A stretch of DNA of 64,000 nt from Clostridiales bacterium (GTDB taxonomy: Bacteria > Bacillota > Peptococcia > DRI-13 > UBA5745): the NCBI GenBank assembly GCA_009782505.1, contig WRIW01000007.1:1-64000 (forward strand), written 5' to 3'. The position numbers and the translations under genes are program-made. This document shows, in pieces, positions 41,099 through 52,557 of the stretch. Below the pieces are notes generated by a model. The model saw only the letters and a program-made list of their open reading frames with translations. It did not search any database and was not told the DNA's origin. Position 1 is the stretch's first letter. Every line of letters begins with the position of its first letter.

Positions 41099-42145
41099 CT
41101 ACCTCATTCTGCTGAGTTGGCTGAGTATCTCCTGCCCAATCTGAGACAAGGGCAGCTGCCTGGTGACGCCGCCCCGCTTATACGCCTCCATAGGCATGCC
41201 GTAGACGACGCAGCTCTCCTGGTCCTGGCCTATGGTGTAGGCGCCTTTGTCATGCATCATGGTCAGGCCCCTGGCGCCGTCGGCGCCCATGCCGGTGAGT
41301 ATCACGCCGATGGAGTTCCCGCCGGCTTCTTCCGCGCAGGATTGGAAGAGCACGTCCACGGAGGGGCAGTGGCCGCTGACTTTCTCGCCCTTCTGGCTGC
41401 GGACATAGTAGCCCTTGACGTCCCTCTTCAGGGTCAGGTGGTACTCGCCGGCGCCCAGGAGGATAAGCCCGGTCTCTACCCGGTCGCCGTCGGCGGCCTC
41501 TTTGGCGGTCATGTTGCATATCTTATCCAGCCGCTCGGCGTACATCCGGGTGAAGCCCGGGGGCATGTGCTGCACGATGACTACGCCGGGGGTGCTGGCG
41601 GGGAGGTCCTTGACCACCTGAATGATGGCTTCCGTGCCTCCGGTGGAAGCGCCGATGGCCACGACGGCCCGTTGGTTCTTGAACATAGAGGGGTTGCCCA
41701 GCACCCTGGCATGGGGCGCAAGGGGCGCCCGCGCCCCCCGGACCTTGCTGCGGTAGATGGCTTTGATCTTGCCCCTAATGGTATCGAAAAACAAATCCAG
41801 GTCCCCGGGGGCGTTGACCGCGGGCTTCTTCTCGAAGTCCAGGGCCCCGGCTTCCACGGCGTCCAGGGCAAAGTCCGCCCGGGAGCTGATGACCAGCACC
41901 GGCAGGGGATGCCTGGGGAGAAGCATCTTTAAAAAATCTATCCCGTTCATACGGGGCATTTCTACATCGAGGGTAAGGACGTCCGGCTTCAGCTGGGTGA
42001 TTTTCTGCATGGCCTCGTCCGCGCCGGCGGCGGTGCCGACCACGCGGATGCCCGGATCCTCATTGAGGGAGCTTTCCATCTTCATGCGGAAAAGCAGGGA
42101 GTCGTCCACGACCAAAACCTTGATGGCAGGGAGCGTACTGGGCAT
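41099..42145 (-). CDS. cheB: Chemotaxis-specific methylesterase CheB
   Basis: Removes methyl groups from receptors when its receiver domain is phosphorylated. The receiver domain (phospho-Asp60 in VLTLDVEMP) is followed by the esterase domain with the catalytic Ser167 (AIGASTGGTEAI), His193 (VQHMPPGFT) and Asp289 (TGMGADGARG). At 348 residues the length is normal. It is the last gene of the cheA-cheW-cheR-cheB minus-strand series. RBS AAAGGTGATT precedes the ATG. Confidence 0.96.
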   Translation of the reverse strand: MPSTLPAIKVLVVDDSLLFRMKMESSLNEDPGIRVVGTAAGADEAMQKITQLKPDVLTLDVEMPRMNGIDFLKMLLPRHPLPVLVISSRADFALDAVEAGALDFEKKPAVNAPGDLDLFFDTIRGKIKAIYRSKVRGARAPLAPHARVLGNPSMFKNQRAVVAIGASTGGTEAIIQVVKDLPASTPGVVIVQHMPPGFTRMYAERLDKICNMTAKEAADGDRVETGLILLGAGEYHLTLKRDVKGYYVRSQKGEKVSGHCPSVDVLFQSCAEEAGGNSIGVILTGMGADGARGLTMMHDKGAYTIGQDQESCVVYGMPMEAYKRGGVTRQLPLSQIGQEILSQLSRMR

Positions 42146-42166
42146 AAATAATCACCTTTCGCACAG

Positions 42167-42230
42167 AGCACAGTGGGGACGGTTCTTTTGTGTTTTTCGA
42201 AAAACACAAAAGAACCGTCCCCACTGTGCT
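42167..42230. repeat. Perfect 64-bp palindrome between cheR and cheB
   Basis: The two 32-base arms are exact reverse complements (centre between 42198 and 42199), with outer AGCACAGTGGGGAC, core GGTTCTTTTGTG and T/A-rich centre. It starts three bases past the cheR stop and ends 21 bases before the cheB ATG. It does not extend beyond 42167/42230. Shape and GGGGAC core recall REP-type or transposase-associated palindromes; such a stem would also attenuate cheR-to-cheB transcription. Confidence 0.9.
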
Positions 42231-42232
42231 TG

Positions 42233-43063
42233 TCATGTTTTCTGATAGATGGAAGGGCGGATGAAGCCGTAGCGGGTGGCGCCTTTATCCAGCACCTCGG
42301 AGTGGCCCACCAGGAGGAAGCCGCCCTTGGCAGTGGCGTCATAGAAGCGCTCTACCAGTTTGTTTCTGGTGTCGGCGTCGAAGTAGATCATCACATTGCG
42401 GCAAAAGATGATATCGAAGGGCTTCTTGTAGACCATAGGATCCATCAGGTTAAATACCCGGAAGATGACTTCCTTCCTGATCTTCTCCGTCACCTGGTAG
42501 GAGCCGTCCGGCAGGCGGGTGAAGTACTGGGTCTTCCACTGCTTGGGCAGATCCTTGATGTTGTCTTCGGAGTAGATGGCCTGCTTGCCTTTGTTCAGGA
42601 CATTCATGGAGATGTCCGTAGCCAGTATGCGCGTGTCCCACATGCCTTTCTTGCTGCCGAAGTACTGCTCCATGGTCATGGCTATGTTGTACGCCTCCTG
42701 GCCGGCGGAGCAGCCCGCGCTCCAGATACGCAGCTCGCGGCTGCGGTTTTTCTCCAGATAGGGAAGGGCGAACTCCAGGAGGAACTCGAAGTGCTCGGTC
42801 TCCCGGGCGAAGTAGGAGTAATTGGTGGTGATTTTGTTTAAAAAATTCAGCATCTCGTCGCCGGTCTTATCCCGCCGGAGAAGGTCCATGTACTGGTTGA
42901 AGCTGGAAAGCCCCAGATCCTTGATGGTATGGGAAAGGCGCCCTTCCACCAGCTGGCGCTTCTTGGAGAGGTTGATGCCGTACTTGTCGTAGACAAAATT
43001 AACAAGCTGGTTGAACTCTTCGTTTGAAATCTTCACCAGAAGGTTGGAATGATGATTGTCCAT
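42233..43063 (-). CDS. cheR: Chemotaxis protein methyltransferase CheR
   Basis: Methylates Glu residues of chemoreceptors with SAM. The N-terminal helical domain (NFVYDKYGINLSKKRQLVEG) is followed by the SAM-binding domain with TNYSYFARE, WSAGCSAGQEAYNIAMTME, DIIFCRNVMIYFD and LLVGHSEVL. The SAM motif GCSxGEEPY of most CheRs here reads GCSAGQEAY. At 276 residues the length is normal. It lies between cheW and cheB. Confidence 0.95.
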   Translation of the reverse strand: MDNHHSNLLVKISNEEFNQLVNFVYDKYGINLSKKRQLVEGRLSHTIKDLGLSSFNQYMDLLRRDKTGDEMLNFLNKITTNYSYFARETEHFEFLLEFALPYLEKNRSRELRIWSAGCSAGQEAYNIAMTMEQYFGSKKGMWDTRILATDISMNVLNKGKQAIYSEDNIKDLPKQWKTQYFTRLPDGSYQVTEKIRKEVIFRVFNLMDPMVYKKPFDIIFCRNVMIYFDADTRNKLVERFYDATAKGGFLLVGHSEVLDKGATRYGFIRPSIYQKT

Positions 43064-43072
43064 AGTTACTTC

Positions 43073-43558
43073 CTATTCCTCCGGCGCGAGCAGCTCCGCC
43101 ATATCCGCCTGGAAAAACTTTACCACGTCGATATTCATGACTACTTTTTCGTTCAGCGTGGAGATAGAGTCGAGGAAGCTGTCCCCCAGGCGCTTGTCCG
43201 AAAGGGGGGGGGGCGCCATGTTGCTCCGCTCCAGGCTCACCACTTCCGCCACCCGGTCTACGATGACGCCTACGTTCATGTCGTTGATGAGGACGATGAC
43301 GATGCAGGTCTTGTCGTCGTAGTCCCGCTCCTCCAAGCCGAACTTCAGGCGCACGTCGGAGATGGGTACGATCTTGCCCCGGAGGTTGATGATACCCTTG
43401 ATGTAGTGGGGCACGTTGGGGATATGGGTGATGTGCTGTATGCCGATGATCTCGATGACATGATTCAAGGGCAGGCTATATGTGGTGTCATCTATATCGA
43501 AGGTCAGGTATCTGCCGGTAAGGTCGTCCTGTACGGCGTTGACGTTTGTTTCATCCAT
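43073..43558 (-). CDS. cheW: Chemotaxis coupling protein CheW
   Basis: Links receptors to CheA. The SH3-like double barrel of the family is visible: LTFDIDDTTYSLPLNHVIEI, then YIKGIINLRGKIVPISDVRL and CIVIVLINDMNVGVIVDRVA. The last 50 residues include a stretch PPPLSDKR in a loop. The 161 residues cover a complete CheW. It starts 21 bases after cheA. Confidence 0.96.
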   Translation of the reverse strand: MDETNVNAVQDDLTGRYLTFDIDDTTYSLPLNHVIEIIGIQHITHIPNVPHYIKGIINLRGKIVPISDVRLKFGLEERDYDDKTCIVIVLINDMNVGVIVDRVAEVVSLERSNMAPPPLSDKRLGDSFLDSISTLNEKVVMNIDVVKFFQADMAELLAPEE

Positions 43559-43579: not shown

Positions 43580-45652
43580 TTATAAATTGCTGACGAGGCT
43601 ATTTGCGTCCAGGATGAGGCAGATGCTGCCGTCCCCAAGGATGCTGCAGCCGGACAGCCCAAGCTCTTTCAAGTTGTATTTATTAAAAAATGAGGGAAAT
43701 GGCTTGACTACCACCTGGTACTCGCCCAGAAGCTCGTCGGCGAAGAGGCAGGCGATGGAGTTGCCGCTTTCCACCTGGATCATGATGCCGTCCATGACGT
43801 CGGTCTTCTCGGTGGATATCATGAAGTGCTCGTGGAGGCGTACCACGGGGTAGCAGTCGCCCCGCAGGAGTATCATCTCCGCCCCGTCCGTGTCGTGGAG
43901 CACCTGCTTGGGGTCGGTGATCTTGAAGGACTGCTTGATGGAGGTGATGGGCAGGGTAAATGTCGTGTCCCCCACGGAGATATTCATGCCGTCCACGATG
44001 GCCAGGGTCAGGGGTATCTTGATGGTGAAGGTCGTGCCCTTGTTCTTCTCGCTGCTGATGGATACGGCGCCGCCCACCTTCTCCAGGTTTTTCTTCACCA
44101 CGTCCATGCCTACGCCCCTGCCACTGTACTCGGTGACCTCGGTGTTGGTCGAGAAGCCGGGGAGCATGATGAGGTTGAATATCTCCTTGTCCGTATACTC
44201 GGACTCGGGCTTGGTGAGCATGCCGTTGTTCCGGGCCTTAGCCAGGATGCGGTCTACATCCAGGCCGCTGCCGTCGTCGGAGACGTCGATGAGGATCTCC
44301 CCCCCGGCGTTGCGGGCGTTGATGGTGACCTGGCCGGTCTCGGGCTTACCCAGGGACATGCGCACCTCGGGAGGCTCGATGGCGTGGTCGATGGAGTTCC
44401 GTATCATATGCATGAAGGGGTCGCCTATGGTGTCGTTGATGGTCTTGTCCACTTCCGTATCGCCGCCGTAGGTGACCAGGTCGACTTTCTTGCCCAGGCT
44501 CTTGGTCATATCCCTCACGATGCGGTTCATCTTCTGGAAGGTGCCCGTGAGGGGCACCATGCGGATGGACATGACCACATCCTGGAGCTCGTCCGTAAGC
44601 TTCCGCAGCTCACGGGTGGATTTGGTGAAATTGTCCAGCTTCAGCCCGCGGAGATCCGGATTGCTGGCTACCATGGACTCGGCGGTGACGATCTCCCCCA
44701 CCAGATCCATGAGGGCGTCGAGCTTGATTTGGTTCACGCTGATGAGGTTCTGCCTGGCGCCGCTCCCTCCGGCAGCAGCCGCCGCCGCGGGGGCTTTGGC
44801 TGCCGCCTGGACCGCTCCCGCGGCCGGTAGGGCCGCTGCGCCTTCGCCGGCTGGCGCCGGGGCCTGGGCGTCGGTAGCCTCGGCTGCCGGGGGCGAGCCG
44901 TCGTCGTCTTCGCTGAGGAGCTCGTAACTCTTGATATTGAGCGAGCTTTCGATGATTTTAATGACGTCGTCTAAGTTGTCCGTAGGCTTGCATATGATGA
45001 GGAAGCCGTTGCGGATGATATCCGCGCAGAGGGTGGCGTCGCTTTCCGGATGGGGGGGCACGGAGTCGATCTCGTCGCAGCAGTTGGCCAGCTGGTTCAG
45101 TATCATGAATGCCCTCATGTTTTCCATCTGGCATTCGTCTTCGAAGTGTATGCGTATCCGCCGGAAGCCCTCGTAGGAGGGGCCCGCCGCCGGGGCCTCA
45201 GCCCCCGCCGCCGCCGGGGCGGCCGGGGGAGGCGCCTCGCCCTTCATCACCGCCGCCAGCCCGTGGAGCTGACGAACCATGTCGGAGGGGTCGCCTTCCT
45301 CGTAGTTGGGGTCGCTCACCCGCTCGATCTCCCGCTTGAGGAAGTCCGAGCTCTGGAAAACCAGGTCAAAAAGGGAGCTGAACACGGGGCCCAACTTATT
45401 TGCGTCCTCCCTGAGGATGAAGAATACGTCTTCCACCGCGTGGCCTAAGCCGGAGATGGCGGAAAAGCCCATCATCGCGGAGGAGCCTTTGACGGTATGC
45501 ATGATGCGGAATATGCTGTCAATATTTTCCTGATTAATGTTCTGCGCGCGTTCGGACTCAAGCAAGATCTCGTCCAGCTGCTCCAGCATAGTATTTGACT
45601 CGTAAATGAAAGTCTCCAACAAGGCTTCCATACCGGGATCGATTGCGCTCAT
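43580..45652 (-). CDS. cheA: Chemotaxis histidine kinase CheA
   Basis: Central receptor-controlled kinase, 690 residues. Domains in order: HPt with phospho-His52 (RIMHTVKGSSAMMGF), CheY/CheB-binding P2 (about 155-245), Ala/Pro linker, dimerisation helices (ISVNQIKLDALMDLVGEIVT), ATPase with N-box MIRNSIDHAIE and G-boxes DDGSGLD and GRGVGMDVVK, and the C-terminal CheW-like domain. The Ala-rich linker at about residues 265-295 is the only unusual part. RBS AGGTGA precedes the ATG. Confidence 0.97.
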   Translation of the reverse strand: MSAIDPGMEALLETFIYESNTMLEQLDEILLESERAQNINQENIDSIFRIMHTVKGSSAMMGFSAISGLGHAVEDVFFILREDANKLGPVFSSLFDLVFQSSDFLKREIERVSDPNYEEGDPSDMVRQLHGLAAVMKGEAPPPAAPAAAGAEAPAAGPSYEGFRRIRIHFEDECQMENMRAFMILNQLANCCDEIDSVPPHPESDATLCADIIRNGFLIICKPTDNLDDVIKIIESSLNIKSYELLSEDDDGSPPAAEATDAQAPAPAGEGAAALPAAGAVQAAAKAPAAAAAAGGSGARQNLISVNQIKLDALMDLVGEIVTAESMVASNPDLRGLKLDNFTKSTRELRKLTDELQDVVMSIRMVPLTGTFQKMNRIVRDMTKSLGKKVDLVTYGGDTEVDKTINDTIGDPFMHMIRNSIDHAIEPPEVRMSLGKPETGQVTINARNAGGEILIDVSDDGSGLDVDRILAKARNNGMLTKPESEYTDKEIFNLIMLPGFSTNTEVTEYSGRGVGMDVVKKNLEKVGGAVSISSEKNKGTTFTIKIPLTLAIVDGMNISVGDTTFTLPITSIKQSFKITDPKQVLHDTDGAEMILLRGDCYPVVRLHEHFMISTEKTDVMDGIMIQVESGNSIACLFADELLGEYQVVVKPFPSFFNKYNLKELGLSGCSILGDGSICLILDANSLVSNL

Positions 45653-52356: not shown

Positions 52357-52430
<74 letters not shown>

Positions 52431-52522: not shown

Positions 52523-52557
52523 CAATTTGAAATGGGACGTTGTCCCATTTCAAATTG
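52523..52557. repeat. Perfect 35-bp palindrome upstream of the 5'-nucleotidase
   Basis: Arms of 16 bases (52523-52538 and 52542-52557) are exact reverse complements around a three-base loop GTT. The inner ends read GGGAC and GTCCC, and the outer ends CAATTTG and CAAATTG. It stands between the tRNA terminator and the next ribosome binding site. Confidence 0.85.

Follow-up and report, generated by a model that had tools for sequence, protein, structure and literature searches.

A perfect palindrome between cheR and cheB as a probable miniature mobile element resembling the ends of long Y1 transposase genes

The chemotaxis operon cheA-cheW-cheR-cheB lies on the minus strand of the 64,000-nt stretch of DNA analysed here (the window), and the gap between its last two genes holds a long, perfect palindrome. 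What is this structure, and how did it come to lie between two chemotaxis genes? It spans nt 42167–42230, and no perfect inverted repeat in the window is longer; the second-longest has arms of 16 nt. As the initial annotation described, its two arms (42167–42198 and 42199–42230; 32 nt each) are exact reverse complements (100%) with no spacer, and a perfect arm of 32 nt excludes chance. It is placed between the TGA stop codon of cheR, which ends at 42233, and the ATG start of cheB at 42145. The 21 nt first given as the distance to cheB is correct, while the distance to the end of cheR is 2 nt rather than three bases. Pfam supports the identification of both neighbours. The features of the locus are as follows.

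42167..42230, no strand: whole element, two REP-like hairpin units joined head to head as a dimer, which make a perfect 64-bp palindrome
42167..42198, plus: left arm, unit 1, reading AGCACAGT-GGGGACGGTTCT-TTTGTGTTTTTC; the unit recurs in all copies of this genome (G000)
42199..42230, minus: right arm, unit 2, the exact reverse complement of unit 1
42175..42186, plus: conserved 12-base core GGGGACGGTTCT, the loop of the unit-1 hairpin
42211..42222, minus: conserved core GGGGACGGTTCT of unit 2
42169..42174, plus: unit-1 stem, 5′ side, CACAGT (CACAAA in other copies), pairing with 42187–42192 (stem swap test)
42187..42192, plus: unit-1 stem, 3′ side, TTTGTG (stem swap test)
42233..43063, minus: cheR, CheR methyltransferase (Pfam); stop codon 2 nt from the palindrome
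41099..42145, minus: cheB, receiver and methylesterase (Pfam); start 21 nt past the palindrome
42153..42159, minus: Shine-Dalgarno-like AAAGGTG of cheB, outside the palindrome (from the sequence)
43073..43558, minus: cheW, upstream in the operon (Pfam)
43580..45652, minus: cheA, upstream in the operon (Pfam)

The only match to a known RNA family in the window is a tRNA, and searches for a phage or plasmid origin gave no match, so both of these assignments were rejected. Elsewhere in the window, a perfect 16-bp inverted repeat with a 3-nt loop (CAATTTGAAATGGGAC) is found at 52523–52557, about 90 bp past the tRNA gene at 52357–52430. The coding sequence of cheW contains a run of ten G on the plus strand (43204–43213) that gives PPP in the coding direction; it could be a slippage site or plain coding sequence.

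If the palindrome were a mobile repeat, further copies might be expected in the same genome. The G000 assembly (1.98 Mb, 73 contigs, 83% complete) carries the element at about 17 places, including 13 dimers that fit GGGGACGGTTCT-N(10-40)-AGAACCGTCCCC exactly, i.e., inverted pairs of GGGGACGGTTCT. The sequence GGGGACGGTTC occurs 37 times, against once for a reversed control. The copies are similar only from about RRCACA inwards and their flanks are unrelated; most lie 0–17 nt from a stop codon. Six relatives (G002, G003, G004, G005, G007 and G008) retain the cheR–cheB adjacency without the palindrome, and the element was accordingly gained in this lineage. The initial annotation had suggested a mobile-type repeat, and had taken a single copy in the genome to speak for a local stem. 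Dispersal within G000 and absence at cheR–cheB in relatives bear out the former, and the copy number removes the latter objection. A search of the phylum for the exact CACAA stem returned G000 and G077 only, and no donor was identified.

Several individual loci show departures from the standard form. One contig terminates within a copy (G000:C42:12312-12373). Palindromes of this kind thus interrupt the assembly, and a copy bearing a Y1 transposase gene could be lost in the same way. In L017 (G000:C21:12902-12953), a rearranged form, both cores face the same direction instead of being inverted. The close relatives L108 (G004) and L109 (G003) share the ends of the cheR–cheB gap, and their short mid-gap inverted repeats differ (TGTGAC...GTCACA; CCCTTTGT...ACAAAGGG). 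This gap is apparently fast-changing.

Each arm of the palindrome forms a small hairpin of its own, in which a stem of about 6 bp surrounds the fixed 12-base core, and the letters of the stem vary between genomes. In a stem swap test on 33 groups of genomes, pairing persisted although the letters differed, with a mean of 4.83 perfect pairs within arms compared to 2.50 ± 0.16 when 3′ flanks were exchanged between genomes. The stem of the window copy is imperfect (CACAGT/TTTGTG, with wobble), where other copies read CACAAA/TTTGTG. Dimers turned up in 39 of the 398 phylum genomes searched, and the reversed control gave zero; as the core was searched for as an exact string, its conservation among dimers is partly by construction, a bias from which the sister cores described below are free. 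The share of letters common to the two arms of one copy is 0.83, against 0.65 between copies (0 of 5000 shuffles). Perfect arms had been read as a sign of recent insertion or strong selection, but because the arms of a copy share letters specific to that copy, they need not indicate a young one, and that reading is not upheld as a simple matter of age.

The same unit is carried by transposase genes in related genomes. Of the 398 phylum genomes, 124 encode a long Y1 protein (alignment A1), namely 33 of the 39 with dimers and 91 of the 359 others (p = 4e-13, a value that overstates independence since the genomes are related); the six dimer genomes with no long-Y1 match include G000. The proteins are approximately 250–275 aa long with NHxH and YIHNNP/YIHQNP motifs and a C-terminal extension, whose HTH-like nature is suggested by sigma-factor-like matches below cut-off in L051. 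Among the Y1 genes checked in dimer genomes, 27 of 39 have the core at both ends, inverted and pointing inwards, mostly 58–270 bp before and 13–241 bp after the gene. By comparison, none of the 13 short IS200-type loci (L038–L050) carries it. The core-flanked proteins L051 and L060 score above the cut-off set by NCBIfam for REP-associated tyrosine transposase, and L058, with a sister core at its flanks, scores slightly below it. A PDB sequence search with the Y1 protein gave no match.

Stems at the gene ends correspond to those of the dimers in the same genome. The mean longest stretch shared between Y1-flank stems and same-genome dimers is 8.25 letters, compared to 4.38 between genomes, and none of 2000 permutations was as good; the exceptions are G363 and G194. 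The association with a Y1-type REP transposase made in the initial annotation thus holds for this kind of repeat, which is linked to Y1 (RAYT-like) genes in relatives, but no Y1 gene was found in the 83%-complete assembly of its own genome. The gene may be missing from the assembly, may have been lost, or may never have been present, and the copies of G000 may accordingly be orphans.

Ten of the 39 Y1 genes lack GGGACGGTTC at their ends, and almost every one of them is flanked by inverted repeats built on sister cores: GGGGACAGGTACC, GGGGTCAGGCTT, GGGGACGTACC, GGGGACGGGGTT and GGGGACGGTCC. Core type follows the protein phylogeny. On a tree of 71 proteins it requires 17 changes, against 28.7 when shuffled (0 of 200 shuffles as low), and the GGGGACGGGGT genes make up a single supported group (nine rows). 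CACA/TGTG stems resembling the G000 ones occur at Y1 genes of the L129, L136, L180 and L181 group, and our best guess from these sequences is that the source enzyme would have been a lost or unassembled member of this group. No sister-core dimers were found in congeners with the pattern tried. In L106 (G002), where the same applies, the short cheR–cheB gap has the sister-core-like sequence GGGGACAGG beyond the stop of cheR, perhaps by chance.

The placement of dimers relative to genes was tabulated for at least 120 loci in named genomes, mostly of Bacillota, with some of Bacteroidales, Omnitrophota and others. Among the matches listed, 52% of 75 dimers in intergenic gaps are no more than 10 nt from a stop codon, compared to 6.7% of intergenic positions in the control. 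The figure is approximate, since the gene calls were rough open reading frames and 57 of the 132 dimers, lying inside or overlapping a frame, were left out. Convergent gene pairs have an excess of dimers between them and divergent pairs have few, again among the matches listed; in tandem gaps longer than 80 nt, 11 of the 28 listed lie within 15 nt of a stop, where 3.05 were expected. These biases, together with the likeness of the arms of a copy, would also suit a domesticated 3′-end element of whatever origin, retained for a hairpin that protects or terminates messages past stop codons. We consider this unlikely as an account of the palindrome: the occurrence is patchy (39 of 398 genomes) and the cheR–cheB position is not conserved, which point instead to insertion followed by loss of harmful copies, and the placement itself rests on crude open reading frames.

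A local RNA stem that sets the CheR:CheB ratio, as an attenuator, RNase barrier or translational brake, would explain why the palindrome sits exactly between a stop codon and a ribosome-binding site. Its predicted fold is very stable (RNA −54.2 kcal/mol, z = −12.5; single-stranded DNA −37.6). This explanation is nevertheless very improbable given some 16 other places in unrelated contexts and six relatives of the same gene order whose gap is without the element. No T-tract succeeds the stem: CTGTGCGAAAGG follows on the coding strand, and with no terminator called at the element an intrinsic terminator was rejected. Any effect on expression may be a consequence of insertion and leaves the origin unexplained. 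Less probable still is a DDE-type MITE, which belongs to a cut-and-paste insertion sequence and would show terminal inverted repeats along with duplication of the target site. The element is short, palindromic and dispersed, with ends that are alike, as a MITE would be, but no target-site duplication was detected; flanking direct repeats were no longer than in shuffles, both in G000 and in 126 dimers from other genomes, and the matching ends in relatives are those of Y1 genes.

The palindrome is very probably a non-autonomous miniature mobile element, consisting of two head-to-head REP-like units that resemble the ends of a Y1 gene without the gene. Units with genome-specific stems form both ends of long, TIRYT-like HuH/Y1 genes, and the Y1 enzyme would recognise stem and core of the unit in its folded, single-stranded state at a replication fork. 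It may then excise or copy the unit as single-stranded DNA and rejoin it elsewhere without duplicating the target. Insertions would survive mainly just past stop codons, where they harm least, and one such copy presumably landed between the stop of cheR and the ribosome-binding site of cheB in this lineage. Mobilisation by the enzyme, the involvement of the fork and the fitness filter are all proposed from the sequence patterns above.

Among described repeats, the TIRs of TIRYT transposases, a branch of the REP/RAYT world, fit best. TIRs of TIRYT genes have the motif GGGGWSAS (PMC3733652), and the genes are probably the TnpA-Y1 subclass 2.1 of PMC6006769. In TIRtrons, as here, inverted repeats flank a long Y1 gene with HuH and Y--NP motifs and a C-terminal extension, TIR copies are dispersed and occur in dimers, and the motif begins GGGGAC/GGGGTC. 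The sequences GGGGACAG and GGGGTCAG, found at sister genes of the same tree, both fit GGGGWSAS. The core of the present element, GGGGACGGTTCT, is one letter off this consensus, with GGGGACGG deviating at the seventh letter, and because of this departure no family name can be fixed. REP-like hairpins were not found for subclass 2.1 genes (PMC6006769, 2018), whereas the ends seen here are small hairpins whose stems vary by genome. The word Firmicutes is absent from the main text of the 2013 paper (PMC3733652). A literature search for the core letters gave, among the papers listed, no description in a bacterial-repeat context, a weak result as figures are unsearchable.

REPINs and BIMEs (dimers of GTAG REPs with RAYT genes) likewise combine two head-to-head hairpin units into one long hairpin, are dispersed, mostly intergenic and near the 3′ ends of genes, and have a linked HuH/Y1 gene with the unit at its ends. 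The present repeats differ in having the conserved letters in the loop and a variable stem, in being few (tens of copies), and in the absence of a GTAG/GTGG foot. A GTAG REP/REPIN was rejected since the hairpin feet read AGCACA, AACACA, GACACA and similar. The CGTC-tagged REPs of PMC3733652 are also short palindromes, often in head-to-head dimers, and the reverse core AGAACCGTCCCC contains CGTC. In those repeats, reported without a dedicated transposase (PMC3733652), CGTC is an unpaired end tag; here it is inside the core and the unit is carried by Y1 genes, and this assignment was also rejected. The REP- or MITE-like nature first suspected is largely right, with Y1-linked TIR repeats as the closest kind. 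The suggested resemblance of the core to REP-associated (RAYT) palindromes stands as far as the link to Y1 goes, but this is not a true REP, as the GTAG foot is missing and the nearest published relative is the TIRYT TIR.

For the chemotaxis operon the insertion is probably incidental, although the modelled fold makes some effect on cheB expression plausible. The new points are that the unit is a hairpin, that its loop is fixed while the stem varies, and that the stem is matched to the enzyme. There is perhaps an even chance that the recognition code of the TIRYT branch is modular, pairing a near-fixed GGGGAC-type loop (common to many genera and several phyla) with a short stem that covaries with the enzyme, so that a genome could hold several non-crossing populations of elements, with dimers persisting preferentially within about 10 nt of stops. 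The papers cited for TIRYT genes (PMC3733652, PMC6006769) describe them as free of REP-like hairpins and leave the repeats unexplained. The matched stems, the common core and a core type that tracks the protein tree amount to a directly testable code for how these single-strand transposases choose their DNA, and connect many so far unassigned palindromes of Bacillota and other phyla with a single group of enzymes. The main value of the finding lies in how such repeats pair with their transposases.
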